A stretch of DNA of 64,000 bases, from positions 1-64,000 of the forward strand of contig NZ_JANQIM010000025.1 in NCBI RefSeq assembly GCF_028282165.1, given 5' to 3'. The notes under the pieces are model-generated. The model did not search any database. It saw nothing but the letters and a program-made list of their open reading frames with translations, and had not been told where the DNA came from. Origin of the DNA: Winogradskyella sp. Its GTDB lineage: Bacteria; Bacteroidota; Bacteroidia; Flavobacteriales; Flavobacteriaceae. A program made the translations under genes and the position numbers. This document shows, piece after piece, positions 1 through 16,729 of the stretch (position 1 is the first letter of the stretch; each line of letters begins with the position of its first letter).

Positions 1-250
1 ACGGTTAAACCGCCGCTTTACGGCTTCTTTTAATCCTATTTTTTGCCTACAGTCACGCAGTACACTGCTATTCGTCTTTTATTTGCTATATTCATACCTA
101 AACAAGGCAATGGCGCCTCGGCACATTTGCCAACTAACAACTAAAACGAATAGCGTTAAAAGCTTTCGTAGCTCGATCAAGACGCTGTCTTGAAACCCTA
201 CTCGCTTTACCCGCGTGACTGTTGTGCAACATTTGAAAAAACATTGAGAT

Positions 251-532
251 TTGATTAAAATATTTCAAAAGTCATTAAAGAAAGAGATTGCCGAATTGAG
301 TAATGAGATTCTGAATTTCGTTTGGTCATATAAAATTGAACATTCTGATATAAAAAGTAGCGGAGTAAAGGATGGAAAACAAATCATTACGGAATATTTA
401 GAAAATCGAGAATACGGAGTTGCTTATGAACATCTTGCATACATAATAACTGAATGCGAAATAGAATTAAAAGTCGAACAGAAAAACCGAATGGATAAAA
501 TCGCGGATAGAATGAATATTGAACCAATTTAG
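251..532 (+). CDS. small hypothetical protein, weakly MafI-immunity-like; TTG start
   Basis: 93-aa ORF; 'YLENREYGVAYEHLAYII' resembles the YLDxGEYGLAxEEL core of MafI-type immunity proteins (recall, not searched). Confidence 0.45.
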   Translation: MIKIFQKSLKKEIAELSNEILNFVWSYKIEHSDIKSSGVKDGKQIITEYLENREYGVAYEHLAYIITECEIELKVEQKNRMDKIADRMNIEPI

Positions 533-668
533 TTGCTAACTAATGAAAAAGGTACTGAATTTTTGTTTGGTTGCAAAACCTCTATTTGGCATCAATGATT
601 GGTATAGAATATTTGAAATAACGCTTTAACTTATGAGCAAATATTAAAAATTTAATCAAATAAATTAT

Positions 669-899
669 ATGAAAAACTTAGTCAAATATTTCCTTGTAGT
701 TTTTGTTATTTGCTTTTGTTCCTGTTCGGAACTTGGTCCTAACTCAAATGAATTTGTAGTGTACAAGAAGCATAAATATAATGCATATAATTATACATAT
801 AGATTAAAACCAACTAAAGGGAAAGGGAAATTATTTATAAATACTTCCGATATATTCAAAGTTGGAGACACATTGAAACTATCTGTTAATTGCAAATAA
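669..899 (+). CDS. short putative lipoprotein, possibly truncated
   Basis: signal peptide plus lipobox-like FCSCSE; 76 aa. Confidence 0.4.
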   Translation: MKNLVKYFLVVFVICFCSCSELGPNSNEFVVYKKHKYNAYNYTYRLKPTKGKGKLFINTSDIFKVGDTLKLSVNCK

Positions 900-1050
900 C
901 AATAGAATATGGAAAACGTAAACAGGATGAAACCTTAAATATGAGCGGAACGAAAACAATAATTGATTCTTGTTTGGAATGTCTAATATAAGAGGAAATC
1001 AATTCCTTGTAGCCCGAATTAATTGAAAACAAGAGAAAATGGATAAATAA

Positions 1051-1217
1051 AAACGTGCCACAACAACGTGTATAGCTCATTGCGGCTGATCCCGATAGCT
1101 ATTGGGACTAATCGGAATTGCCAAAGCCAGTTCGCACGTTGTGCTCGTGTCATTGCAATTTGCTATCTTTCCATTACGGCGGAAATCACAACAGATTTTC
1201 AGCAGTGAGCCATACAC
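1051..1217 (+). repeat. cassette-boundary-like intergenic element with inverted arms
   Basis: GTGTATAGCTCATTGC (1068-1083) and GCAGTGAGCCATACAC (1202-1217) are complementary at 14 of 16 positions. Confidence 0.6.
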
Positions 1218-1248
1218 AAAGCTGTCATACACAATTTAACCCAACAAA

Positions 1249-2130
1249 ATGAAAAAAATCTTAGCAATAATTATTCTGATTACGTTTTTAAGTTGTGAAA
1301 AAGATGATGGAAATAATTCAATTGAAATTGATAATAGCCCATTAACCCACGCTGAATTAGGGTTTGAATTAGATGAACCAGATGTGATTTTAAACGAACT
1401 CAGCAAAGGAGAGTTGAAAAAACATATAAATTCTATTTTGTTAGTAAGTTATGGAAACGCCTACCGAAAGTGGGAATTTGAATATATTGAGAATACAGAT
1501 ATGTTATCAAAAATGGTATTTTATTTGCCAAATTATCAAGGTTGCGAACAAAACGTTTACGAATTTTCATATAATGAAAATAGCTTGCTTGATAAAGTAA
1601 TTTCAACTCGGGAAAATGTTTGCAATGAATATGAGGTCATTAAAATATACACCTTTAATTATAATGACAATGGTTTATTAAAAAGTATTTTTATGGATAA
1701 TGACTTTTTTGTCGAAGAGAACTACTTTGGATATTATCCCAATGGAAAAATTAAAGAAATTTACAACGACCACAGAGGTAGAGGAGTTGAGCCAAGTTTT
1801 GGTGTACAAAAGTTTACTTATAATGATTCATTTACAAATGTAATCGAAGTAGAATCTATTGGAACAAGTACACATTACACATATAAATATTTTTACGACA
1901 ATAATACAAATCCCTTTAAAGATGTTTTTATTGGAACATCCGTCTTTATGCCATTCATTGGGCCAGCGTATTTATCAGAAAATAACGTTATTGAGATGAT
2001 TGAAAAAAATGAAAATAATATACATAACCAAGAATTTAGTACTGAATTTATATTCAATTACTCAAGTAATAATTCTTTAATTGACTACTCATCTTTAGAT
2101 AACGAAATAATCTATACAGTAAATCAATAA
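1249..2130 (+). CDS. lipoprotein with YD/RHS-like beta-strand repeats
   Basis: MKKILAIIILITFLSCEKD lipobox; repeated FxYNxNxLLxxI motifs. Confidence 0.65.
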   Translation: MKKILAIIILITFLSCEKDDGNNSIEIDNSPLTHAELGFELDEPDVILNELSKGELKKHINSILLVSYGNAYRKWEFEYIENTDMLSKMVFYLPNYQGCEQNVYEFSYNENSLLDKVISTRENVCNEYEVIKIYTFNYNDNGLLKSIFMDNDFFVEENYFGYYPNGKIKEIYNDHRGRGVEPSFGVQKFTYNDSFTNVIEVESIGTSTHYTYKYFYDNNTNPFKDVFIGTSVFMPFIGPAYLSENNVIEMIEKNENNIHNQEFSTEFIFNYSSNNSLIDYSSLDNEIIYTVNQ

Positions 2131-2299
2131 AAACCGTGTACAACAATGTGTATAAGTAATAGCGGTTGAAATGATAAAATGAGAGTATAAACATAAAACA
2201 AAGGTCAGTACGCTCTGAATTGTCAAGGTTGTGACGAACTCAAAAAAAAAGTGTCTAAAATCATAACTGACGGTTATGCTAAACGGTTACTACACATTG
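2131..2299 (+). repeat. cassette-boundary-like intergenic element with inverted arms
   Basis: AAACCGTGTACAACAATGTGTATAAGTAATAGCGG immediately after the stop; TTACTACACATTG at 2287-2299 is its inverted partner with a 3-nt gap. Confidence 0.55.
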
Positions 2300-2992
2300 A
2301 ACATAACGAGAAAAGAGTTTGAAAATAAAATCAGAAAATCTGCAATCAAATTTAAAGTTGGTGGATTTAGACCAGAAGAGTCCTTAACCGCTTCTTGGAT
2401 TGGTAATGTAACTGTAAAAGGGATCAATGAATCATGGCCTGAATCAAACGGAAAACCAATGATTCCGATTTGTCAACTAAACCTAGCTCAACTTCCAATC
2501 AGGCCAAACAATCTAAAAGATATTGAACTAATCACTTTATTTGTCGATTCAAATGAATTACCTGACGGCAAACCCAACGGACAGGGATGGTTAATCAGAA
2601 CGTACAAGAACATAAATGGTTTGGAAGAAATTGAGAAACCTGCTGTAGACTTTCCAATTAAACCATTTCAATTAAAACCTGAAGTAATTGACAATGATTT
2701 TCCATGTTGGGAAGATTGTCCAATTGAAGTCCCTGGTGAATTTGATGACGATTACCATAACTTATTTACAAATATAGAAGGAATAAAAATTGGTGGTTGG
2801 CCAACCTTAGTACAATCAGAAATTTTATGGGCTCCATTTAATCAACATCCAGCGGAACCAGAATTTGTTTTACAAATTGATTCGATTGAAAAAGCCAATT
2901 GGTATTGGGGCGATAATGGAGTGGCTTATATCGGTCGTGGAACGAAACCAAAAACTAAAGAAGATTGGACTTTTAGTTGGCAATGTTATTAA
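2276..2992 (+). CDS. DUF1963/YwqG-like protein
   Basis: 'PMIPICQLNLAQLP' and 'FVLQIDS...WYWGDNGVAYIGRG' are typical of DUF1963; the exact start is uncertain because the called ATG lies in an intergenic repeat arm. Confidence 0.6.
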   Translation: MLNGYYTLNITRKEFENKIRKSAIKFKVGGFRPEESLTASWIGNVTVKGINESWPESNGKPMIPICQLNLAQLPIRPNNLKDIELITLFVDSNELPDGKPNGQGWLIRTYKNINGLEEIEKPAVDFPIKPFQLKPEVIDNDFPCWEDCPIEVPGEFDDDYHNLFTNIEGIKIGGWPTLVQSEILWAPFNQHPAEPEFVLQIDSIEKANWYWGDNGVAYIGRGTKPKTKEDWTFSWQCY

Positions 2993-3156
2993 AAAACGTG
3001 CGGTAACACAATATATGCTCAATTTGGTTGCTGTTTTTTTGTTTCCAAAAAAGAAAAATCAATGAGTACTCCTCGACTAGGCGAGACTTTCATAAAATCG
3101 ACAACTGATAATAACAAATCTCTAAATTGGGCTAGACTCTGCCAATTATCAATACG

Positions 3157-3200
3157 ATTTTTCATTATCTTCACAAAAAAAGACAACTGCGCATAGCGCA
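3157..3200 (+). repeat. spacer repeat, copy 1
   Basis: ATTTTTCATTATCTTCACAAAAAAAGACAACTGCGCATAGCGCA. Confidence 0.75.
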
Positions 3201-3219
3201 ACATTAGGATGCATTTGAA

Positions 3220-3996
3220 ATGAAAAACATCAAATTTATTACAATTTCACTTTTTTTTATGTTTAGTTGCAGAAATGGTGAAATTTCTGAAGTAAATAAA
3301 AAGAAAGCCACTGAACTTAATAATCAAGCGGTTGAGCTAAGAATGAATGGAGAATTAGATAAAGCAATAAATCTTTATAAAAAAGCTTATGAGATAGATG
3401 AATCTAATTTAAATGTTCATTTTTCCATATTAGGAATTTATATCCAAAAAAAGGAGATAAAAAAAGCTTTTGACTTCTTAGATAAACTCTCAAAAGAACA
3501 AAAGAAAACCGTCTATTATTATCAAACCAAAGGTAACTTATTTGAATACGATGGTAAAATAGATGAGGCTAAAGAAAATTACAAAAAAGCATACGAATTG
3601 AATGAAATGGTAGAAATCAAAAATGAATCAGATTTAAATACACTCATTAATTATACTATGCTCGAAACTTTTGCTGGGCATAAGGAAAAAGCAGTGAATA
3701 GAATAAATGAAACCTTAAAATTAGAATGGCTGACTGAAGCTAATAAAGATTATTTAGAAACATTTAGAAACGAATTTGAGTTTTATCAAGGTGATGGTGC
3801 ATTAGAATTTCAAAACGAAAAAGAATTTCGAATTTGCACTAAAAATATTGATAGCTTAAAACAAATTTTAAAGGAAAATCATATTAATATTTCTGGTAGT
3901 AGTTCACCAATTGGAATTAGCGAATTCGGAGAAATAAGAGTAAATGAAAAGTTTCGAAGTAAAATTGAAAAACTTGAACTAAAAGAATGTGAATGA
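3220..3996 (+). CDS. TPR-repeat lipoprotein
   Basis: lipobox MFSCRN; TPR motifs (AINLYKKAYEIDESN, AKENYKKAYELN). Confidence 0.65.
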   Translation: MKNIKFITISLFFMFSCRNGEISEVNKKKATELNNQAVELRMNGELDKAINLYKKAYEIDESNLNVHFSILGIYIQKKEIKKAFDFLDKLSKEQKKTVYYYQTKGNLFEYDGKIDEAKENYKKAYELNEMVEIKNESDLNTLINYTMLETFAGHKEKAVNRINETLKLEWLTEANKDYLETFRNEFEFYQGDGALEFQNEKEFRICTKNIDSLKQILKENHINISGSSSPIGISEFGEIRVNEKFRSKIEKLELKECE

Positions 3997-4457
3997 AAAT
4001 GCATACAAATCAATACGATAGGGAATTAAGATATAACAAAGATGGGATTTATCAAGAGTTCAAATACTTCTTCAATCCAGTAAAACAAGAAGGCGGAACT
4101 AAAAGTATTAGTCATCACAATGGGGTTAAGATTTCCGAAAAAGACCATTCTGCCTATAAAACAGATATAAACGGTAATAAAATAGAAAAATATTCCGCCT
4201 ATTCAACTGACACCCTAAAATTAATCTCTACTCATAAATTCAACGAAAAAAATCAAATACTAGAAAATGACTATCCAACCAAACTTGAAAATTTTGAATA
4301 TGACAAGAATGGGCAGATTACAAATAAAATAATTAAAGACAAAAACGGAATTACAATTCTGAACTTCCACTACAAGAATTCATTACCTGAAAAGATAGTT
4401 AAACTTAACGGAGGAAATGAGTTAACTTTCAGATATGAATACGAATATTACAAATAA
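3993..4457 (+). CDS. hypothetical protein with YD-like repeats, translationally coupled (ATGA) to the TPR gene
   Basis: 4-nt overlap with the upstream ORF; ENFEYDKNGQITNK repeats. Confidence 0.5.
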   Translation: MKMHTNQYDRELRYNKDGIYQEFKYFFNPVKQEGGTKSISHHNGVKISEKDHSAYKTDINGNKIEKYSAYSTDTLKLISTHKFNEKNQILENDYPTKLENFEYDKNGQITNKIIKDKNGITILNFHYKNSLPEKIVKLNGGNELTFRYEYEYYK

Positions 4458-4605
4458 AAACTACTGGTAACAATGACAATAGCTGATTAGATCGGACTTT
4501 TTCTGCAACGAAACCATAGTCAAGACCGTTGGGCAAAATTGCAAAAAATGACTTGTATCCTTTCCCTTAACAGACCTTACAAACAATGGTAGACAAAATA
4601 AACTG

Positions 4606-5583
4606 ATGAGAATACTTTATATATTACTACTTATCGCTACGTTTTTAGGATGCAAACAATCCCAAAAAGAAGAAGACCGAAATCAAGAAAAGAAAGAGCG
4701 ATGGTTTTTTTGGTCAGTCGATTGGCATCCAACTAAGAAACAATTTGTAGTAGGAGGTTCTAACGATTCATTTTTAAAGTTTTTTTCTACCGATAATTTT
4801 CAAGAATTAAAAAGTATGCCTTATAAAGGAACGATTACAAAAACCAAATGGCATCCTACGAAAAGTAAATTAGCAATTTCGGTACAAGATGGGAAATCCA
4901 AATCTAAAATATTTAACGTTGACAGTGATATGATGGTCGAGCTAGATAGCATACCGAGTACTGGAGCAAGAGCCCTGGGATGGAACCAATCTGGAAATCT
5001 ATTGGCAGTGGGCGACAATGAGGGCTTTTTAACATTCTTTGATGAAAATGGGAAATTTTTAAAGAAAATAGATACTGGGCAAAAAGGTCTCATGAGTTTA
5101 GATTGGCATCCAAAAGAGAATATAATTGTTACGGTTGGCGACAAAATTTCGTTGTATAACTATGACATTAATAGCTTAAAACATTTTGAGGATAGAGATG
5201 AAGAAATGCTAATGCTTTGCGTGGCGTGGAATCCTAACGGAGAATTTTTTGTAACGGGCGACTATGGAGATTTTACAAATCACTATCCGCCATTATTACA
5301 GTATTGGACATATGAAGGGGAAAAAATAAAAACAATAGAAAAAAGTAAGGCAGAATTAAGGAACTTAAAGTGGTCTAATGATGGTGAATTATTAGCAACT
5401 GCCAGCGAAAAAATTAGACTTTGGGATAAAAATGGAAATTTAGTAGCTGAAGAAGCTACCAAAAATCTTCTTTGGGGAATAGATTGGAATAAAAACGGTA
5501 ATAAAATAATTGCCACAGATAACCAAGGGAAAATCATTTTTTGGGATAGAGACCTAAATAGGTTAAACGAATTGAAATATTGA
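4606..5583 (+). CDS. WD40-repeat lipoprotein
   Basis: lipobox LGCKQ; repeated SVDWHPTKK / LGWNQSGNLLAVGD / LKWSNDGELLATAS / IIFWDRD. Confidence 0.75.
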   Translation: MRILYILLLIATFLGCKQSQKEEDRNQEKKERWFFWSVDWHPTKKQFVVGGSNDSFLKFFSTDNFQELKSMPYKGTITKTKWHPTKSKLAISVQDGKSKSKIFNVDSDMMVELDSIPSTGARALGWNQSGNLLAVGDNEGFLTFFDENGKFLKKIDTGQKGLMSLDWHPKENIIVTVGDKISLYNYDINSLKHFEDRDEEMLMLCVAWNPNGEFFVTGDYGDFTNHYPPLLQYWTYEGEKIKTIEKSKAELRNLKWSNDGELLATASEKIRLWDKNGNLVAEEATKNLLWGIDWNKNGNKIIATDNQGKIIFWDRDLNRLNELKY

Positions 5584-5646
5584 AAAGACTGCCTACAAAA
5601 ATGGTTATAAGTAATCACCAATAAATTACTTCCCCACTTAGTACTA

Positions 5647-5677
5647 CTCGTATCACTCAAATCAATTATCTTTAGAC
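5647..5677 (+). repeat. promoter-like spacer repeat, copy 1
   Basis: CTCGTATCACTCAAATCAATTATCTTTAGAC. Confidence 0.65.
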
Positions 5678-5740
5678 TATGGCATAAAAATACACTGATG
5701 TTCCATAGCGAGCCATACCTTCAAGACGAATCACCAGACC

Positions 5741-6361
5741 ATGAAAACATTTTTAGGCATAATTCTTATACTTTTGTTCACTACTTCCTGTAAAGGTCAA
5801 ATGCAGAGAAACGTTGGCGGACCATGCGAAGATTGCGAAGCAGCCTTAGACTATAAAATACTCAATATAAAGCCAAAACCTATTGATACTTTGCCTGGAT
5901 TTCGTGAGAATGACCCAAAAATAAAAATCACGGGAACCGTATTTAAAAAAGACGGAAAAACACCAGCTGCTCAGATAATTCTATATATCTATCATGTTGA
6001 CAGAAAGGGAATATACCAAGCTAGTGCCGATCCAAAAGGATGGGAAAAACGTCACGGACAGTACAGAGGATGGCTAATGACCGACAATAATGGGCAGTAT
6101 GCGTTCTATACCTTTAGGCCCGCACCCTATCCTGAAGTGCAAGAGCCCGAACACATTCATATTTATGTAAAAGAACCGAATACGAGACCCTACTATATTG
6201 ATAGTTATCTTTTTGAGAGCGATCCAACACTCACGGACAAAATAAAAACATCTCAAAAAAAGCGTGGCGGTTCAGGAATCGTGAGACTTGACCTCCAAGA
6301 CGGAATTTGGATCGCGAAAAGAGACATCATTTTAGGACTAAATATTCTGGACTATGAATAA
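5741..6361 (+). CDS. intradiol ring-cleavage dioxygenase-like lipoprotein
   Basis: lipobox TSCKG; 'TGTVFKKDGKTPA...YIYHVDRKGIY...RGWLMTDNNGQYAFYTFRPAPYP...PEHIHIYV'. Confidence 0.7.
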   Translation: MKTFLGIILILLFTTSCKGQMQRNVGGPCEDCEAALDYKILNIKPKPIDTLPGFRENDPKIKITGTVFKKDGKTPAAQIILYIYHVDRKGIYQASADPKGWEKRHGQYRGWLMTDNNGQYAFYTFRPAPYPEVQEPEHIHIYVKEPNTRPYYIDSYLFESDPTLTDKIKTSQKKRGGSGIVRLDLQDGIWIAKRDIILGLNILDYE

Positions 6362-7181
6362 TCTAAAATCAATTGTATTACTTTCCATAGTCTTTTTAAG
6401 CTGTCAGACAAGAACCGAATTTCCTAACGTTAGTAATCAAATAGATTTTGCTTACAAACAACTAAAATATATTGATAAAGTTTCTGAAAAAAATTTACGG
6501 GGAGTTAGGTATTTCTCAAATGATAGTTTATTGATTGAAGTCATAGGGCACGAATATCGTTATAAACTAATTTACGATAGTAATAATAAGCTAACAGAAG
6601 AATACGACTGTAGAATGTACAATTGCGATGTTGGTTACAGAAAACTATTCTTTTATGACAAAAACAATAACTTCATTGGGAATTTCTATACTTTAGAGAC
6701 AGAAGTTGACAAAGACACTATTAGTTTTAAACAAACCAAATTTTATAATTCCAACAATCAGTTAATTAAGGAACTGATTCAAAGTGGAAAGAATGCTAAA
6801 GGAGAATATTTTGAAACTTGGAAAGTCTATGATTATGTGAATAATAGGATAAACAAAGAAATAGAAACTCATAATTCTGACACCATTTGGGTTGGAAATT
6901 ACTTTTATGATAAAAAGAATAACCTATCTCAAATAACTAGAAGATTTGGAGATAAATATGAAATCGAATTGTTCTTTTACAGTACATCAAATCAAATAAA
7001 AGAGCACCGAATTATGAGTAATGAGTACCAAATCGAAAAATCCACGTCATATAGCACAAACAATAATTCCACACAATACCTATACTACGACAATGGCCTT
7101 ATTAAAGAAAAGGTACATTATAATCACTTAGGAGAAGAACATTGGAAATATATTTATGAATATGAATCGAAAACAGACTAA
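6354..7181 (+). CDS. lipoprotein with YD-like repeats
   Basis: lipobox LSCQT; repeats such as KLIYDSNNKLTEEYD, KFYNSNNQLIKEL; overlaps the 5741-6361 ORF by 8 nt. Confidence 0.55.
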   Translation: MNNLKSIVLLSIVFLSCQTRTEFPNVSNQIDFAYKQLKYIDKVSEKNLRGVRYFSNDSLLIEVIGHEYRYKLIYDSNNKLTEEYDCRMYNCDVGYRKLFFYDKNNNFIGNFYTLETEVDKDTISFKQTKFYNSNNQLIKELIQSGKNAKGEYFETWKVYDYVNNRINKEIETHNSDTIWVGNYFYDKKNNLSQITRRFGDKYEIELFFYSTSNQIKEHRIMSNEYQIEKSTSYSTNNNSTQYLYYDNGLIKEKVHYNHLGEEHWKYIYEYESKTD

Positions 7182-7563
7182 GCGCAACAATCGCTACGAG
7201 CAGGTTAGAAAGATGATTCTCACAGGTTGCTAGTGCCTGCACGTATTATTATTCTAACTCAAGTGTTGATTTTAATATAGCAGAAAACCATCATAAAATG
7301 TAGAATATTATCCCGATTTTAATTATTGCCTTGCCATTTTACCTGTCATATAGATAAAATTTTAAAGAATTAATAACATAATTAATACAAAAAGAACTAG
7401 AATTAATTCTTATCTTCTTATCAAGAAACATAGATCTATTTACGTCTTGTGATCAATTCAAAATCAATAGAACCACAGCCTTAAACTAAAGGAGCAGATA
7501 GGTCAAAAAAATGGACAAGCCGAACACCATTTTACAAAGTAGGCAAATCAAAAGTCTATAAAA

Positions 7564-8157
7564 ATGATTAGAAAAGTTACGTTTATACTATTATTAGTTA
7601 TAGGAGTTTCCTGCAATCAAACAGATAATCAAAATACTACCAAACAAGAATCTAATCAAGATCACAAAATAACTCTTTTTTCATCTGAATGTATTACGGA
7701 ATCCGAAGTTGTTAAAGCTCAAGAAGAATGGGGTGCTGGAATAGTGAAAATCGGAAAAGTGTATTCCGAAGGAGGCAACTACAAACAAGCTGCTATAGAG
7801 CATATTCAAAACCTATATGGATACGACCTAAGTTCGGTTCTCTTTAAACCTACTCTAGCTTCTGAAGAGCAATTTAGGGGCACGTTTGACGCAGCTTTGT
7901 CTTACTTTGTTGGCGGAAACGAAACTTATCAAGAAGACAAAGGCTTTGCTTTGGCGCCATACACCAAAGTTCGTTGGGAAAACAGCGGAATAATAAACAA
8001 CAGTTGTAATATGGCCATTGCTATGGGCAATTATTACTTCACTAAAACAGATGGTGAAGAAGTAAAAGTCGAATATACTTTGGGATACATTAAAGATGCT
8101 ACCGGAAAGTTGCGAATTGTTGTCCATAAATCAGCTCTACCCTACAGTCCAGAGTAA
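7564..8157 (+). CDS. NTF2/SnoaL-like lipoprotein
   Basis: lipobox VSCNQ; 'ITESEVVKAQEEWGAGIVKIGK...GKLRIVVHKSALPY'. Confidence 0.5.
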   Translation: MIRKVTFILLLVIGVSCNQTDNQNTTKQESNQDHKITLFSSECITESEVVKAQEEWGAGIVKIGKVYSEGGNYKQAAIEHIQNLYGYDLSSVLFKPTLASEEQFRGTFDAALSYFVGGNETYQEDKGFALAPYTKVRWENSGIINNSCNMAIAMGNYYFTKTDGEEVKVEYTLGYIKDATGKLRIVVHKSALPYSPE

Positions 8158-8264
8158 AATAAAAAGCCGAATAAGCTAGCTATGGCAATGACTATAACTT
8201 ATTAAGCTTAATATCGATATCAATCCCGATAGTCCCGATAGCTATCGGGACAAGTATCTACGCA

Positions 8265-8310
8265 ATTTTTCATTATCTTCACAAAAAAACAGACAACTGC
8301 ACATAGCGCA
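8265..8310 (+). repeat. spacer repeat, copy 2
   Basis: ATTTTTCATTATCTTCACAAAAAAACAGACAACTGCACATAGCGCA, nearly identical to 3157-3200. Confidence 0.75.
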
Positions 8311-8332
8311 GTGTTACCACACTACCACACAT

Positions 8333-8830
8333 ATGAGAAGCAGTGTACTAATAACAATATTTTTAATTTCGATAAAAAGCTTTTCGCAAGAAAAAAGCAA
8401 AATGTTTCAGTCGGAATTTGCGCCATATACAATCCAATGTGAAAAAATTGGAAGATTATTAATTGACAAAACAGCCGGGTCAAATTTAACTGAATGGTTT
8501 GAGGGAAATGATTTAGACAAATACAAATCTGAACTCTCTGAATTTGAATCTGATATTGACAAATCTGAATTAGAAGTCACTTATTATCTATCGTTGATGA
8601 GCGAAAATCCATTGATTTATGCATTTGATTTTCGAAATGCAGAAACTGAAACACCATTCGGACAAATATATATTAGATTTATAAATCGCGAGAATATATT
8701 AGTTGATGACATAAAAATTATTACTAAATCTAAAATGGATGAAATAGAATCGGAATCTGACAATTCTGAATTGCCAAAACTTCCACCTCCACCAAAACCA
8801 CCAAAAGAAAAAAAGAAAAGTGGAAATTAA
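8333..8830 (+). CDS. hypothetical exported protein with Pro/Lys-rich tail
   Basis: signal peptide; C-terminal KLPPPPKPPKEKKK. Confidence 0.45.
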   Translation: MRSSVLITIFLISIKSFSQEKSKMFQSEFAPYTIQCEKIGRLLIDKTAGSNLTEWFEGNDLDKYKSELSEFESDIDKSELEVTYYLSLMSENPLIYAFDFRNAETETPFGQIYIRFINRENILVDDIKIITKSKMDEIESESDNSELPKLPPPPKPPKEKKKSGN

Positions 8831-9026
8831 AGTACATGTGGTAACAATATATAACCGCAATTATGGCAATGTTTATACTATAAAGCTTAAAGGTCACCCA
8901 AAAGCTTAAAACCACTAAATCAGAAAATCTTTCACTTCCCAAACAATTAATCTGCCTTTATTTGCTAACTTGCGTATAAAAGCAACAAACTAAACCCGAG
9001 CATTAGTAAACCTAAAAAACTAAGAA

Positions 9027-10280
9027 ATGACAAAAAAACTACTATTGATTTTTACATTACTTGTAAGCCTTATTACTTGGGGGCAAACCTATGTGAGCGG
9101 CGGCATCAACCAAGACACATTTTGGACACTGCAAAACAGTCCCTACATCATAACCGGGGATACTGTTATCTTTGGTGACAACACGCTAACCATAGAGCCA
9201 GGGGTTGTTGTGAGATTCGATAATGACGTTCAGTTACGTATACAAGGCTCGCTCATTGCCATAGGGGATAGTTCTAATACTATAATATTCACTTCTAATG
9301 ATCCCAATCCTCAAAGAGGATCGTGGCATGAAATAAATCTCGAATTCAATGCTGTATTACAGTTAGATTATGTTGAAATGGAATATGCAGACAATGCTTT
9401 GTATTATAGCTATATAAATACATCGAGCTATATTAGGAATTCAATTTTTCAATCTAACAACAATGCGATTGAAGCAGAATCTGGCGGACAGTTTGCATTA
9501 ACCATAGAATCTGTTAGGTTTATCGATAATGATAAAGGAGTTTCTAATTATCACGATGATTTAACTTTATTGAATTGTGAATTTATAAATAATAGAATTG
9601 GTGCAGAATTAGTAGAAAGCAACGTCGATTCATGCCTGTTCGAACAGAATTCTGAAATTGGTCTTGACGGCCATACATCCACAATTCAAAACTCCACCTT
9701 TATATTTAATAATATTGGATTAGAGCAAAGTTTTAGTGGCGGAATCGATTCGTCTATTATGATAGGAAATACCATTAAGGATAATTCAATTGGTGTTAAG
9801 ATAAGAGGTAATAATCCCATGGCAACATTTACAAATAATACCGTATGCAATAATACCATATATAACATAGAAAATACAAGTTCTTTTAGTGGGCACGACT
9901 TATCCGATAATTGTTGGTGTACAAGTGATACCAATGAAATAGAAGACAGCATTTTTCATGGCTTGGATGACATTAATTTTGGAGTTGTTACTTTTACCCC
10001 AACTGCTACAGGATGTCCAGATTCTACATTAAGTGTTACCGATGTACTTGAATCAAATAACGGCAATTTATTTTACCCAAATCCAATTATCGAGGAATTG
10101 CATTTTTTTGATGACTTTAAGAAAGTCTATGAGATTTACGCAATAAGTGGTGTCCTTGTAGAAAAAGGGGCCGCTATTGGTAAAATCAATCTTTCTAATC
10201 TTAATGCAGGATTATATGTGATAAAAGTAGAAATAGTGGACCAATCGAAAACAATAATTAATAAGCTTATTAAGAATTAA
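9027..10280 (+). CDS. parallel beta-helix (PbH1-like) secreted protein with T9SS type A sorting domain
   Basis: signal peptide; NSIFQSNNNAIEAE-type repeats; C-terminal FYPNPI...ISGVLVEKG...LNAGLYVIKV...KLIKN. Confidence 0.75.
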   Translation: MTKKLLLIFTLLVSLITWGQTYVSGGINQDTFWTLQNSPYIITGDTVIFGDNTLTIEPGVVVRFDNDVQLRIQGSLIAIGDSSNTIIFTSNDPNPQRGSWHEINLEFNAVLQLDYVEMEYADNALYYSYINTSSYIRNSIFQSNNNAIEAESGGQFALTIESVRFIDNDKGVSNYHDDLTLLNCEFINNRIGAELVESNVDSCLFEQNSEIGLDGHTSTIQNSTFIFNNIGLEQSFSGGIDSSIMIGNTIKDNSIGVKIRGNNPMATFTNNTVCNNTIYNIENTSSFSGHDLSDNCWCTSDTNEIEDSIFHGLDDINFGVVTFTPTATGCPDSTLSVTDVLESNNGNLFYPNPIIEELHFFDDFKKVYEIYAISGVLVEKGAAIGKINLSNLNAGLYVIKVEIVDQSKTIINKLIKN

Positions 10281-10328
10281 GCATTGCCAAAAGTGTATAA
10301 CTGGAATTAGCATCGTCAGTTCTTGTTA

Positions 10329-10358
10329 TTCGTATCACTCAAATGAATTGCTTTTAGG
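10329..10358 (+). repeat. promoter-like spacer repeat, copy 2
   Basis: TTCGTATCACTCAAATGAATTGCTTTTAGG. Confidence 0.65.
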
Positions 10359-10414
10359 TTATAGTAAAACTATAGTCGCGACTACTACCCCCAAGTCAAA
10401 AATATAAATCAAAT

Positions 10415-11191
10415 ATGACAAAAATTCACCACCTAAACTGTGTTAAGATAGAATCGCCAATGGGTTCCGCTATTGGACATTGTTTGCTCATTGAAGAAAA
10501 TGGCAAACTAACGCTGATCGATTCTGGAATCGGACTTTTGGAAACCAAGGATCCTGAAAAGACATTAGGAAAAGAATTGATTGAAGTAACTGGCTATATC
10601 TTTGAAGAGCGTCTAACAGCAATAAGACAAATCGAAAAACTTGGTTTTGAATCTAAAAACGTTGAGAACATTATCTGTTCGCATCTTGACCCTGACCACA
10701 TTGGAGGATTGGCAGACTTCCCCAATGCCACAGTTCATGTATCAAAAGAAGAATATGAGAGTTTTAAAAGTGGAAACGAAAGGTATTTGCAGCAACAATT
10801 ATTCCATAAGCCAGATTTAAAACTTTATGAAAACAACGATTCGGAATGGTTTGAACTTGCAGCCAGAAAAGTTGATTTGAACCTGCAAAGTGAAATATAT
10901 TTAATCCCTCTGTTTGGACATACACTTGGCCACTGTGGAGTTGTAGTAAAAGCAAACAATCAGTGGACTTTCTACGTTGGAGACGCCTATTACCTGCGCG
11001 CAGAAATAGACAATAAAAACCATCCTGTTGACCAATTAGCGACAATTAGAGCCGTAGACAATAGTTTAAGAATTGCATCCTTAGAAAAAGTCAGGGAAAT
11101 CATAAGACGGCATGGTGACCAAATCGAATATTTTGGCTATCACGACCCAACTGAATTCAAAATGAAAAAGCCCGTCGGCAACAGTATATAA
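10415..11191 (+). CDS. MBL-fold metallo-hydrolase
   Basis: 'ICSHLDPDHIGGL' (HxxxDH-type motif), 'GHTLGHCGV', 'YVGDAYY'. Confidence 0.75.
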   Translation: MTKIHHLNCVKIESPMGSAIGHCLLIEENGKLTLIDSGIGLLETKDPEKTLGKELIEVTGYIFEERLTAIRQIEKLGFESKNVENIICSHLDPDHIGGLADFPNATVHVSKEEYESFKSGNERYLQQQLFHKPDLKLYENNDSEWFELAARKVDLNLQSEIYLIPLFGHTLGHCGVVVKANNQWTFYVGDAYYLRAEIDNKNHPVDQLATIRAVDNSLRIASLEKVREIIRRHGDQIEYFGYHDPTEFKMKKPVGNSI

Positions 11192-11231
11192 TTGTAGTAA
11201 TACAACACCATTGTAAGCCATCAAAACGGAT

Positions 11232-11723
11232 ATGAATGTAAGAGTGTTAGAACATACTGAATCCGATTTTTTGGCAGAAATGCTGTATGAAGCCATCTAC
11301 ATTCCTGAAGGACATGATCCTTTACCTAAAGAAATAATAAAGGATCCTTCTTTGTCTAAATACATTGAAAATTGGGGAAAAGATAAATTCGATATTGCCT
11401 TAGTTATGGAAATAGAAGATCAACTGGTTGGTGCTATTTGGGGACGACTTTTTTCCAAGGACAATAAAGGATTTGGCTATGTCGATGAAAATACCCCAGA
11501 ACTGAGTATGGCTGTTTTGAGCGACTATCGAAATCAAGGAATAGGAACAAAACTAATTCATACAATAGCTACTGAATATCAGAAAATCGGAGTGCAAACA
11601 CTATCGCTAAGTGTTGATAAAGCCAATAATGCTTCAAATCTTTATAAACGACTTGGATATAAAATCATAGAAGAATTAGAGACATCTTGGACAATGAAAA
11701 AAGAATTAAATGACCACTTATAA
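11232..11723 (+). CDS. GNAT-family N-acetyltransferase
   Basis: 'LSMAVLSDYRNQGIGTKLIHTI' acetyl-CoA loop; 'NNASNLYKRLGYKI'. Confidence 0.8.
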   Translation: MNVRVLEHTESDFLAEMLYEAIYIPEGHDPLPKEIIKDPSLSKYIENWGKDKFDIALVMEIEDQLVGAIWGRLFSKDNKGFGYVDENTPELSMAVLSDYRNQGIGTKLIHTIATEYQKIGVQTLSLSVDKANNASNLYKRLGYKIIEELETSWTMKKELNDHL

Positions 11724-11778
11724 AAATAACCAACTCAACAAAGCCATTACATTGAGTTACTAACACTAGATCGCATTG

Positions 11779-11809
11779 CTTGTATCACTCAAATAAATTA
11801 CCTTTGAGC
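11779..11809 (+). repeat. promoter-like spacer repeat, copy 3
   Basis: CTTGTATCACTCAAATAAATTACCTTTGAGC; contains TACCTTTG. Confidence 0.65.
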
Positions 11810-11864
11810 CCTGGCGAAATCATAACTGAGGCCGCCACAAACCATTTAAACCAAACGCTACAAA

Positions 11865-12635
11865 ATGAAAAAACTACATTTACTCATTGGATTTTTAATC
11901 GGATTTACAATACTAGCTTGCTCGTCGGACGACAGTTCTTCAGATACAAATCAAGAAACAAATAGATTCTATAAAAAGTCTGAAGCCTATAGAAATAGTA
12001 GTCTAGTTTTTGATAAGACCGTAAACTATAACTCTAATAATAAAATTCAATCCATTTTAACAAATGACTATGGATACAATACAGAGACGATTACTGTGAC
12101 ATATTCAGGAAATACAATAACAAGTATAAACGAAATTGATGAATTTGATAATCCAAGCAATGCTGACCGAAATGTCACGTATGATGTAACCATTGAAAAT
12201 AATAAAATTACTTTAGAATCAGACGATTATACCATTGAGATAAACCACTCTAATGGTTATGTAAATTCTACAAGAGAATTTTATCCTTCAAATCCAAATG
12301 CTTTTACTGAACAAATCTTTACGAGGGATTCAAACCTAAATTTAGTTTCAAACACAACGGGAGACGGTTCAACATTTACGTATACAGATTTTGACTCGGA
12401 TAAAATGATAGACCCATTTGGGAGTGTCATGGAATATTTCTATTCCGACTACTTTAAAATATTTGACTTAAAAGTAACAAATAGTAATCCTCTGACAGCA
12501 ACCTACAGTCAAGGAAGTATAACCGATACATATAGTCAGTATCTAGAATATGATGAACTAGGGTATGTTATAAGAACTACATTCGAACCTAATTCAACTA
12601 CTGATTATACGGAACATGAATACATTGAATTGTAA
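11865..12635 (+). CDS. lipoprotein with YD/DUF4595-like features
   Basis: lipobox ILACSSDDSSS. Confidence 0.5.
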   Translation: MKKLHLLIGFLIGFTILACSSDDSSSDTNQETNRFYKKSEAYRNSSLVFDKTVNYNSNNKIQSILTNDYGYNTETITVTYSGNTITSINEIDEFDNPSNADRNVTYDVTIENNKITLESDDYTIEINHSNGYVNSTREFYPSNPNAFTEQIFTRDSNLNLVSNTTGDGSTFTYTDFDSDKMIDPFGSVMEYFYSDYFKIFDLKVTNSNPLTATYSQGSITDTYSQYLEYDELGYVIRTTFEPNSTTDYTEHEYIEL

Positions 12636-12870
12636 AAACTGTTTGTAACGACAGCTATAGTTTGTTACTACCATAACTAGCCCTACAGTATCATTCTGTA
12701 GGGTAGCTTTCACCAATCTGTATTGCGGATTTCACGCTATTTTATTAACTTTAGACAAAGTCGGAAAATCCTCTTCCAACGTTAAGTTTCTGTGAACACG
12801 AACGGATTATCCTGCATAGCCCTGCACACAAAGCCTTTGTAATAATTGTTAACTTAAAACAAAACCAAAC

Positions 12871-13359
12871 ATGAAAAACCTTATCTTTCTTTTAGCATTG
12901 ATCCTTCTATCCTGTAACGAAAAAAGCAAAGAATCCCATTCAGAACCTTCAAAAACGAAAGCTTTAGATATTGAAGCCGAATTAGCATCGATTGAAAAGA
13001 CCCGTGCTGGATTTCAATTAGCAATTAAAGAAAAACGATATTCTGATCTAAAAAACTATAGTACTAAGGATATCATTTCTTTAACACCCATTTGTGGCAC
13101 CTGGGAAGAATATAAACAACTTAGAGATGAACCCGTTGGTTCTTTCAGCTATGACAGTCTCATAATGAAACCAAAAGAAACAATTATCGTAAGCGATAGT
13201 GTTGCTTATGATTTCGGAACGAGTTCCATGTACTACACCAATGCAGAAGGTGAACCTGTAGAAATTAAGGACACTTTTTTAGCCATACTTAAAAAAGACA
13301 AAAATGATGGAAAATGGAAATTGCATAGAGAAGTCGCCACTACAAACATATTGGAATAA
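12871..13359 (+). CDS. NTF2/DUF4440-like lipoprotein
   Basis: lipobox LSCNE; 'AGFQLAIKEKRYSDLKNYSTKDI...FLAILKKDKNDGKWKLHREVA'. Confidence 0.6.
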   Translation: MKNLIFLLALILLSCNEKSKESHSEPSKTKALDIEAELASIEKTRAGFQLAIKEKRYSDLKNYSTKDIISLTPICGTWEEYKQLRDEPVGSFSYDSLIMKPKETIIVSDSVAYDFGTSSMYYTNAEGEPVEIKDTFLAILKKDKNDGKWKLHREVATTNILE

Positions 13360-13456
13360 AAACTATGGCCAGCAATGGTTATAGTTCATAAAGAACATAT
13401 CGTAGTCAAGATCATTACTAGTAATTTGAAAACGCTAGTGATGAAAAACATAAAAA

Positions 13457-14593
13457 ATGAAAATAATGTCTATTTGTTTGATGATAATTTTAGCATTAGT
13501 GTCTGGCTGTGACGAGGATAGCAAGGCCATCACTACAGAAACAGACATCCTCTACATTATGCCTGAAGAAAGTGAGCCCCACGAGGGTACTTGGCTGCAA
13601 TGGCCACATCAATATCAATATGGTGTTGAATATCGGAATAGTCTAGACCCAACGTGGATAGATATGACCCAAGCGTTGGTAAGTAGCGAAAACGTTCATA
13701 TTATTGCATACAATGAGACAGAAAAAAATAGAATTATAGGGTTATTGACTTCCGCAGGAATAGCATTAGATCATATAGATTTCAAAATTCAAAAAACTGA
13801 CGATGTTTGGGTTAGAGACAACGGGCCAATTTACACCAAAGACTTAGACGGGAATTTAGTGATACAAGATTGGGGATTTAATGGTTGGGGAGAAAAAATT
13901 GACGAAGTATCTGGGTTTCCTATCGAATTTGAAAATTGCGATATCATCCCAACTAAAATTGGTGAAAGTCAAGGAATAGACGTGATCGATTTAAACAGCA
14001 CAATGATAAATGAAGGCGGAAGTGTAGTCATAAACGGAAATGGCACTTTAATGGCCTGTAAAAGCTCTATTTTAAACAACAACCGTAATCCTGGAATGAC
14101 CCAAACAGAGGCAGAAAGAATATTCAAAACCTATCTGGGTGCAACCCATTTTATTTGGTTAGACGGCCAGGCAGGTCTAGAATTGACTGACCAACATATC
14201 GATGGATTTGCAGTATTTGGTAATGCTACCACTATTGTAACAATGAGCGAAAGTGATCTTTTGGAATATGATGTGCTTCAAAGTGATATTGATAAACTAT
14301 ATACAGCAACAAATAAGAACGGTGAAGCTTACACTTTTGTGCAAGTTCCCTTAACCCAAAATACAGTTAAAAAAACGGACGGAACAGACCTTGGCTATAA
14401 AGGCTCCTATATAAACTATTATATAGCAAACAATAAAGTATTAGTCCCTAATTATAATGATCCTAACGACGCTGTTGCTAATGGAATTATACAAACACTT
14501 TATCCAACAAGAACAGTGGTAGGCATAGACGTAAGAAATCTATACGAAAATGGTGGCATGGTACATTGTGTAACCCAACAACAACCTTTATAG
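13457..14593 (+). CDS. agmatine deiminase / peptidylarginine-deiminase-family lipoprotein
   Basis: lipobox VSGCDE; 'EPHEGTWLQWPH', 'DDVWVRDNGPIY', 'NEGGSVVINGNGTLMACKSSILNNNRNP'. Confidence 0.8.
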   Translation: MKIMSICLMIILALVSGCDEDSKAITTETDILYIMPEESEPHEGTWLQWPHQYQYGVEYRNSLDPTWIDMTQALVSSENVHIIAYNETEKNRIIGLLTSAGIALDHIDFKIQKTDDVWVRDNGPIYTKDLDGNLVIQDWGFNGWGEKIDEVSGFPIEFENCDIIPTKIGESQGIDVIDLNSTMINEGGSVVINGNGTLMACKSSILNNNRNPGMTQTEAERIFKTYLGATHFIWLDGQAGLELTDQHIDGFAVFGNATTIVTMSESDLLEYDVLQSDIDKLYTATNKNGEAYTFVQVPLTQNTVKKTDGTDLGYKGSYINYYIANNKVLVPNYNDPNDAVANGIIQTLYPTRTVVGIDVRNLYENGGMVHCVTQQQPL

Positions 14594-14617
14594 TTAGTTC
14601 ATTATACCAAACTCCAA

Positions 14618-15376
14618 TCAATAACTCTTCAACGTCAGTCCAAAGGTTAAAAATTGGTCTTCACGCTTTTGGCCTTCAACGACAATACTTTCAAAGGTAT
14701 GCAGGTAATTGATCTTAAAGTTAAGGAACTTCCAAATGGGCAATTCGATTCCAAAATCGGCCTGCCAGCGGTAATTATCGCTTTCCTCTAAGGAAGGCTG
14801 TACATAACTTTCGTGACTGAGAATCACCTTTTCCTTAAAGAGGTAGTACTTACCATTCACCCAAATCGTACCGCGAAAGGTATTGATCTCATCACTACTG
14901 TCATATTCATCGATATTAAAATCGGTATTATCAAAATTGGTTTGCTCGTACTCACTAGTCAACGAAAACTTAAGCCAGTTCTTGTCTTTCTTGTAGGCTT
15001 GCCAAGTAAACCCGGCACCTATTAACGATCGCGAACTAATTTCTCGCCTAAAATTGGTACTTAAAAAGCCCAAGACCTGCGGATATATTTTCTTTTCGGG
15101 GTTGAAGTATAAAAAATTAAGACTCAAAAAGTCGGCATCGGCTTTTTCTTTACCAAATTCCTGATACACATAAGAATTTTGGGTTTTAACCACCCATTTT
15201 TTCCACGGTTTATAAGTCACACCAGACTTGGCCCTAAAAATGAAAGTCTCTACATTACCGCCTTGCCAAAAACCCGTTAAGGATAGATCAGCTTTAATCT
15301 TTAGCGAATCACTTTCGTTTATTTGCGCCGAAAGCAACACAGGCAACCACAATAAAACGCAAACTATCTTTTTCAT
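14618..15376 (-). CDS. DUF481-family outer-membrane beta-barrel protein
   Basis: 'KADLSLTGFWQGGNVETFIFRAKSGVTYKPWKKWVVKTQNSYVYQEFG'. Confidence 0.65.
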   Translation of the reverse strand: MKKIVCVLLWLPVLLSAQINESDSLKIKADLSLTGFWQGGNVETFIFRAKSGVTYKPWKKWVVKTQNSYVYQEFGKEKADADFLSLNFLYFNPEKKIYPQVLGFLSTNFRREISSRSLIGAGFTWQAYKKDKNWLKFSLTSEYEQTNFDNTDFNIDEYDSSDEINTFRGTIWVNGKYYLFKEKVILSHESYVQPSLEESDNYRWQADFGIELPIWKFLNFKINYLHTFESIVVEGQKREDQFLTFGLTLKSY

Positions 15377-15487
15377 GCTACAGTAACTGAAATTATACTT
15401 CCATATACAATGCGAAGATATTTATTTGTTAAATATTACGTTTAATTGAATTGAGAATTTTACGATAACGTTTTCTTTGGAGGGAGA

Positions 15488-16729
15488 TTAAGGCTTACCC
15501 TCATTTAATAACTCAGCCACGAAGCTTTCAAATTCGGCTTTAAACTCGGTATATTTTTCACCAGTGGCTGGACCGTTAAAACCTGTGTGTATTTTACGAA
15601 CCTTTCCTTTTTTATCAATAAAAATGGAGGTTGGGTACGACAACACATGATTGAGCATTGGCAATTTTTCCTGCGCTTTGGTTTTACTCGACGTACCATA
15701 TTGCGCCAAAAGTATAGGGTAGTCAATACCTATCTTAGATTGTAAACGTTCTATTCGGCTAAACGCTGTTGCCTTGTCTTTCGCATATTCAAAGGCCAAA
15801 GCAATAAACTCAATATTTTTGTCTTTGTTCTTTTTGTAAAAGTCAGCGTAATATTTGCTCTCATCCAAGCAGTTAGGACACCAAGTCCCCATAATTTGTA
15901 CAATCACAACTTTGTCTTTAAATCGCTCGTCTTTAAGGCTTACCAATTCATTGGACGTATTAGGAAATGTAAAGTCAATACTATCGTAACCTTCTTTTAA
16001 AAATGTGAGTTCGTTGGCACTTGGCAGTTCATAAGTTGGGTTACGTTTGGCAATAAAAGGTTCTTTCCAATGATTACCCGAATAAAAAGTACCTTCCATA
16101 GTAGAATCGGTCACCGTTGCCGTAAATAAAAAAGCATGTGCGCCATCGAAGGTGGAAAGTTTCACGGTATTACCATCCATCACACCTTCGAGATAACGGT
16201 AATCACCTGTGGTGGTTCTAAAAGTACCTGTGACCTTTTGTCCTTCCTGTTTAAAAATACCTTTCGCCATATACTCATCCTCAGGAACACCTTTACTAAA
16301 AACCGTTTCCCAGATTCCAGAAACATTTTGGGTAGCGTCCTGTTGTATTTCAAAACGTTTGTTATTATTAAGCTCTGCGGAAAAAGGTACGATGCGATCT
16401 AAGCTTTCTTTAATAAAACTACCTTTAAGCTGTTCACCATCAAAAGCTGCTGCGATATACCCTTCAAATACAGGTGTTGTAATAAAAACGGAATCGTTTC
16501 GGTATTCAATCTCGTCAACATCAATCACTTCGTCAGCATTAAAAATTTGCAAGGATTTAGGTGATTTCACTTCAAAATTAAAAGGTAAGAACGTACCGTC
16601 CTGTACCTTTAGTGTTGCTCTGTAAGTTCCTGTCTTTAAAACATTGTCCATTACAGCTTCTTTTTTTACATCTTTCTTACAAGACAAAACAGTTAAGAAA
16701 ACAAAACAACAGATTAGGTATCGCATCAT
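15488..16729 (-). CDS. TlpA-family thioredoxin-like lipoprotein
   Basis: lipobox LSCKK; 'VQIMGTWCPNCLDE' WCPNC active site. Confidence 0.8.
   Translation of the reverse strand: MMRYLICCFVFLTVLSCKKDVKKEAVMDNVLKTGTYRATLKVQDGTFLPFNFEVKSPKSLQIFNADEVIDVDEIEYRNDSVFITTPVFEGYIAAAFDGEQLKGSFIKESLDRIVPFSAELNNNKRFEIQQDATQNVSGIWETVFSKGVPEDEYMAKGIFKQEGQKVTGTFRTTTGDYRYLEGVMDGNTVKLSTFDGAHAFLFTATVTDSTMEGTFYSGNHWKEPFIAKRNPTYELPSANELTFLKEGYDSIDFTFPNTSNELVSLKDERFKDKVVIVQIMGTWCPNCLDESKYYADFYKKNKDKNIEFIALAFEYAKDKATAFSRIERLQSKIGIDYPILLAQYGTSSKTKAQEKLPMLNHVLSYPTSIFIDKKGKVRKIHTGFNGPATGEKYTEFKAEFESFVAELLNEGKP

Follow-up and report, generated by a model that had tools for sequence, protein, structure and literature searches.

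The window analysed here, a stretch of 64,000 nucleotides (positions 1 to 64,000, forward strand, of contig NZ_JANQIM010000025.1, hereafter C10) from Winogradskyella sp. assembly GCF_028282165.1, opens with a row of genes whose spacers carry a recurring element, and we examined this row as a candidate integron-like gene-cassette array. All 16 non-overlapping open reading frames (ORFs) between 251 and 14593 lie on the + strand, as a preliminary description of this DNA had claimed, and the intergenic spacers in 1-14600 measure 100-380 nt, except for 11192-11231 (40 nt). The genes are mostly unrelated to one another, and Pfam backed the families that had been read from the letters: TPR, WD40, dioxygenase-like, metallo-beta-lactamase, GNAT, DUF1963 and peptidyl-arginine deiminase. 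Lipoboxes, counted by rule, occur in 9 of the 16 array ORFs (56%) against 6 of 39 in the remainder of the window, so that the enrichment holds but the earlier count of at least ten does not.

The shared spacer element of the window is mostly the 5' half of a site resembling integron attC, and whole copies are found elsewhere in the genome and in the arrays of relatives. The complete site is a long imperfect palindrome with the layout R''(..AAC)-AAT-L''(GNNTATA)-variable stem-L'(CATANNC)-6 nt-R'(GTT..); L'' reads GGCTATA, GTGTATA or GTATAAC, and L' CATAGCC, CATACAC or GTTATAC. Downstream of R', AATTT usually follows shortly, and then the next ATG. The features of the locus are listed below, with scores from the site scanner described thereafter.

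1-220, +: left edge of contig C10; its first 78 bases are the right end of contig C12 (exact overlap).
221-235, +: R' box (GTTGTGCAACATTTG) with which the first cassette of the window begins; from sequence, six bases (GTTGTG) agree with the reverse-complemented R'' of 1055-1064.
251-899, +: two small cassette ORFs without a Pfam family, 251-532 and 669-899, of which the second encodes a short lipoprotein.
1055-1226, +: attC-like site 1, with R'' ..CCACAAC (AAC at 1062-1064), L'' GTGTATA, L' CATACAC and a degenerate R' GTC at 1224; 55.6 bits; part of covariance model R1.
1249-2130, +: cassette gene for a 293-residue lipoprotein (protein comparison).
2134-2288, +: attC-like site 2, with R'' ..GTACAAC, L'' GTGTATA and the 3' half GTTATGC-taaacg-GTT at 2286; 36.1 bits.
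2276-2992, +: cassette gene, DUF1963 (ORF call, Pfam); the called start overlaps site 2, and the real start is probably further inside.
2999-3219, +: spacer with a decayed site; no match in either scan, alone not separable from chance.
3220-4457, +: two-gene cassette, TPR lipoprotein 3220-3996 and ORF 3993-4457 (ORF call, Pfam).
4461-4530, +: attC-like site 3, with R'' ..CTGGTAAC, L'' GACAATA and L' CATAGTC-aagacc-R' GTT at 4528; 45.2 bits; R1 match, E 5e-10.
4606-5583, +: cassette gene, WD40 beta-propeller lipoprotein (ORF call, Pfam).
5589-5618, +: remnant of an att site (5' half), with AAA in place of AAC; 12.8 bits.
5741-7181, +: overlapping gene pair, 5741-6361 (dioxygenase-like) and 6354-7181 (lipoprotein) (ORF call, Pfam).
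7564-8830, +: cassette-like genes 7564-8157 and 8333-8830 (ORF call); no Pfam family.
8835-8864, +: remnant 5' half of an att site (GGTAACAATATATAAC); 14.2 bits.
9027-12635, +: genes 9027-10280 (Por secretion tail), 10415-11191 (metallo-beta-lactamase fold), 11232-11723 (GNAT) and 11865-12635 (lipoprotein) (Pfam).
12871-13359, +: lipoprotein gene (ORF call, domain search).
13363-13392, +: remnant of an att site (5' half), with AGC in place of AAC; 8.7 bits.
13457-14593, +: final array gene, peptidyl-arginine deiminase family (Pfam); an 88% copy lies at the same locus in G299.
14618-16729, -: flanking genes at which the array stops, 14618-15376 (DUF481) and 15488-16729 (core, redoxin/TlpA-like) (Pfam).

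Within the window alone the bare motif is not significant (20 matches against 14.1 expected, with 8 of 100 shuffles equally high), and the words noted earlier at 2996 and 12636 are individually indistinguishable from chance. The shared post-stop word is nevertheless a real element, and it recurs in clean form at other places in this genome, where most copies lie in co-oriented clusters (contigs C3, C11 and C12). The covariance model built from the spacers (R1) works, but its genome search misses sites with long variable stems; we therefore used our own scanner, which combines a two-half profile with arm pairing, was trained on 157 sites outside the window and was controlled with reversed sequence. 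Within the window it recovered three full sites, each of them in the array and on the + strand (1062, 55.6 bits; 4469, 45.2; 2142, 36.1), while the control gave no match of at least 14 in 216 kb. Lone 5' halves scored 14.2 bits at 8843, 12.8 at 5597 and 8.7 at 13371; the best control values for lone halves were 33.9, 18.4, 17.5, 16.0 and then 9.5 (256 kb), and some of the high ones may be unrecognised real sites. Rfam holds no family matching the attC-like sites.

The earlier statement that canonical attC is absent stands for the box consensus, since RYYYAAC and GTTRRRY are matched by only 23 R'' and 25 R' boxes of 285 sites, but not for the architecture, because the order R''-spacer-L''-variable stem-L'-spacer-R' is that of attC. 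The L'' and L' arms covary (51 cells changed on both sides versus 21.7 in shuffles, 0 of 500). When arms were inspected by eye for extrahelical bases, some showed one unpaired bottom-strand base and others G.T wobbles.

In integrons, the R'' box of a cassette and the R' box with which that cassette begins pair with each other, since they come together in the excised circle. Across 24 arrays, R'' was complementary at 6/6 positions to R' of its own cassette in 244 of 309 cassettes and to the adjacent R' in only 9; shuffled partners gave a mean of 4.2 and a maximum of 13 (2000 shuffles). A first run of this test had given 127 own against 2 adjacent matches (n=184). Such complementarity is the predicted signature of circular cassettes recombining at G^TT. 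In addition, the bottom strand folds more stably in 171 of 193 sites, by a mean of 2.4 kcal/mol (folding energy only). Sites of this genome lack the bias (6 of 13), in line with decay.

These data bear directly on the alternative named in the preliminary description, a lineage-specific expansion of exported lipoprotein genes sharing a transcription terminator or a repetitive extragenic palindromic (REP)-like hairpin, without site-specific recombination. The post-stop position of the element, its inverted repeats, the 56% lipobox fraction of the window array and the weak significance of the motif within the window would all suit such an expansion. Terminators, however, act as top-strand RNA, yet it is the bottom strand that is more stable, and they do not predict that R'' should be complementary to a box lying some 1 kb upstream, so that the own-R' test already contradicts this explanation. 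The array genes are moreover unrelated, and lipoboxes make up only 0-17% in the arrays of other genomes. We regard a shared terminator or hairpin as very improbable, and specialisation for lipoproteins was dropped as a property of the system on account of the same 0-17%.

A recombinase that could act on these sites was expected near an array end. This genome does encode a tyrosine recombinase of 356 residues (C8:311-1381) whose homologues adjoin arrays, but it is found only on C8 and there is none at the window locus. The family recombinase adjoins the array in 15 of 16 genome loci; it is divergent from the array in G004, G294 and G291, and co-oriented with the array downstream at the other loci. 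At 80 loci found independently in a genome-wide scan, 49 sites lay downstream on the recombinase strand and 5 elsewhere, and the reversed control gave 5. A truncated recombinase of 190 residues on C11, at the end of a second array, was dropped as the cognate enzyme because the C8 family was found at array starts. That second array (C11:35285-41000; L039:7285-13000) carries a 784-residue restriction/nucleoside triphosphatase-like gene and a TIR-like gene, possible defence cassettes as read from the sequences.

Catalytic residues are invariant in the family. The ~42-residue I2 insertion of integron integrases, which is regarded as their hallmark and has a role in recognising folded attC sites, is missing: 64-65 residues separate the beta-strand lysine from HxxR versus 106 in true IntI, and 21 residues stand in place of 64 in the solved IntI4. 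The recombinase of this genome scored 192.9 bits against the integron-integrase model TIGR02249 (cut-off 265), 181 and 177 bits against the XerC and XerD equivalogs (cut-offs 335 and 330), and 205.9 against NF040815 (cut-off 220). In the tree, array-linked recombinases cluster (91/97) separately from both IntI and from Xer; this group also takes in unlabelled rows, of which some have no recognised array, and integrases of the genus-mates G289 and G297 group with W. ursingii. An AlphaFold model (mean pLDDT 84.7) has an additional N-terminal domain, and its best Foldseek matches were XerA and IntI4. Family members of Bacteroidota with N-terminal regions of about 400 residues were also seen (L141, L142, L143), and the recombinases of L098, L100, L112 and L113 likewise have an unusually long N terminus. 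Recombinases with 46-49% identity to the family are encoded on Acinetobacter plasmids. One contig of a metagenome-assembled genome labelled Undinarchaeales (L119) carries two family members, which could be a binning error.

The system might instead be an ordinary integron whose canonical IntI was missed in a draft genome. The site architecture and the G^TT borders are as in integrons, and the assembly is indeed a draft of 48 contigs. TIGR02249 was, however, exceeded in 0 of 22 genomes (this genome and 21 relatives), several of them with array-bearing single-contig chromosomes, and the recombinase that adjoins the arrays lacks the insertion by both measures above and groups apart from IntI. We thus consider a missed IntI extremely unlikely.

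The attI partner of the first cassette's R'' was sought near the recombinase, with a match of at least 5 bases. In 18 of 22 loci an attI-like R' was located in silico at a distance of 45-220 bp from the recombinase, behind an imperfect inverted repeat, for example GGATATAgttaatacgTATATCCaattGTTG. Among the remaining four loci, one has it at 348 bp, G141 has an IS3-type element in between, one shows a three-base match only and one lies 1.9 kb off.

Contigs C12 and C10 both break inside a ~300-bp insertion (TAGGCAAAAATGCCTGGCGGCACGG...GTGACT; window 1-220, L038:19970-20000) that splits an att site between the 6-nt spacer and GTT. The window array would extend leftwards onto C12, at about 64.7-74.05 kb, where att sites lie on the + strand at 69442, 70493, 71450 and 73731. 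In five relatives (L183, L184, L188, L189 and L190) the C12 genes (to 64670) are only 1.5-3.7 kb from the DUF481 gene or the redoxin gene of window 14618-16729, which makes the array an insertion of ~24 kb; the redoxin/TlpA-like gene itself is found in 60 of 61 genus genomes. At the same spot G299 holds different, mostly + strand genes with the last array gene alone in common, so the content of the array turns over. The outcomes that the preliminary description had named as refuting its proposal did not arise: array content is not kept in relatives at this locus, and the element was found to mark cassette boundaries. In G011 the same redoxin gene lies about 8 kb beyond the end of an array with a recombinase, and the left flank of that array gave no match to the window junction within 20 kb.

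The same cassette was seen in different arrays and genera. Among 301 family genomes, the 293-residue lipoprotein (1249-2130) has a 57% copy in the same array (C12:69603-70478), a 64% copy in another genus (G174:C14:4286-5179) and no further match. Nucleotide homology between the window cassette (1224-2286) and its copies begins and ends inside att sites. In the G174 copy GTTGTACACA is matched by TGTGTACAAC, whereas the window copy has GTCATACACA, which indicates that R' of the window cassette has mutated. The largest array, in G141, holds 74 sites on one strand over ~75 kb; its duplicated cassettes lie in different neighbourhoods and agree in sequence up to the border between G and TT (G/TT), give or take a few chance bases, and two cassette pairs that agree further left are part of a duplicated block. 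This array (L078-L082) also repeats at least 9 times a ~305-bp cassette (TTACCGTTAAATGG...) that is too short for a usual gene.

IS3-type and miniature inverted-repeat transposable element (MITE)-like insertions inside arrays, together with the block duplications in G141, would fit a spread of the array by a transposon, by a palindromic repeat of the MITE kind or through homologous recombination among repeats, with no part for a cassette recombinase. Against this stand the single orientation over up to 75 kb, the G/TT borders, stems of variable sequence with covarying arms, the pairing of R'' with its own R', and the recombinase and attI-like site at array starts. Such a spread therefore seems most unlikely to us.

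Taken together, the attC-like sites and the R''/own-R' complementarity support the earlier proposal of an integron-like, recombination-driven array, and the window from 1 to 14.6 kb very probably represents the distal, decayed portion of a gene-cassette array that an integron-like system of Bacteroidota has built. Several observations weigh against this interpretation. Full sites are kept in only 3 of ~13 window spacers, and the scanner was written from few own-genome sites, so that very different sites would be missed. The join of C12 to C10 relies on a 78-base repeat overlap and on synteny in relatives, not on reads. The recombinase of this genome is on a separate contig from the window array, and G293, of the same clade, has the recombinase with no recognisable sites. 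The attI region of this genome diverges after GCGTATATTTA and looks disrupted; this attI may thus be broken, which agrees with the decay of the window array. Finally, the case for recombination is drawn entirely from sequence traces.

The architecture, the own-R' pairing, the G/TT borders, the folding bias, the attI-like site and the adjacency of recombinase and array were all observed in silico. We propose that the dedicated tyrosine recombinase, as the putative catalyst, would insert circular cassettes at an attI-like site beside its own gene and would recombine folded attC-like sites between cassettes, cut at G^TT, with the single bottom strand as the likely substrate. By its working principle the system counts as an integron, though not as a canonical one when judged by integrase hallmark and box consensus, and we would place it as a Bacteroidota integron class, a variant of integrons.

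As in the sedentary chromosomal integrons of the Vibrio type, the arrays are large and co-oriented and consist mainly of genes of unknown function, the sites have attC architecture, R'' is complementary to the R' of its own cassette, borders fall at G^TT, folding favours the bottom strand, an attI-like site lies beside the recombinase and, in the clade of this genus, the recombinase is divergent. The system differs in that the recombinase lacks I2, stays below IntI cut-offs and has an extra N-terminal region of about 80 residues, and in that the boxes read GTT-R-B-V rather than GTTRRRY, with central spacers of 3 and 6 nt. XerA is known as a dif-type chromosome recombinase and is not known to be tied to cassette arrays. 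The archaeal XerA (NF040815; PDB 4a8e, 5hxy) also lacks I2 and, by sequence, gives the family profile its best match (221 and 210 bits); the NCBI name of NF040815 itself hedges, as 'site-specific tyrosine recombinase/integron integrase'. In Treponema-type integrons intI reads toward the cassettes (PMC3607928), as in most loci here, where the recombinase is co-oriented with the array downstream; Treponema, however, has a canonical IntI, whereas here there is a separate recombinase clade, with a divergent layout in one clade. The window locus, with no integrase and at least 2 att sites (1062, 2142, 4469) that are decaying, resembles clusters of attC lacking integron-integrases (CALIN), a term of IntegronFinder (PMC9024848), and is thus CALIN-like; its sites differ in being of the Bacteroidota type and decayed.

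IntegronFinder 2.0 reported one complete integron in Bacteroidetes proper, in Salinibacter (PMC9024848); before it only In0 was on record for Bacteroidetes, and Bacteroidota were otherwise mentioned in general terms. The literature searched, in which subscription journals and preprints were thinly covered, held no description of such a system and no complete integron in marine Flavobacteriaceae, and its novelty is tentative. The system appears to be widespread in marine Flavobacteriaceae. We think it fairly likely that Bacteroidota have a deep-branching integron class of their own, in which a XerA-like recombinase without I2 captures cassettes via attC sites that are folded from the bottom strand and have a box code of another kind, integron function having arisen twice or preceded I2. 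Of 251 Flavobacteriaceae genomes, 173 contain an exact core word, and up to 74 sites stand in a single array, so that a large stock of cassettes would have gone unnoticed in this major and mostly marine family. If such an integron class exists, most Flavobacteriaceae hold an unrecognised cassette reservoir, and a working relative without I2 would make the need for I2, and the origin of integrons, testable questions.

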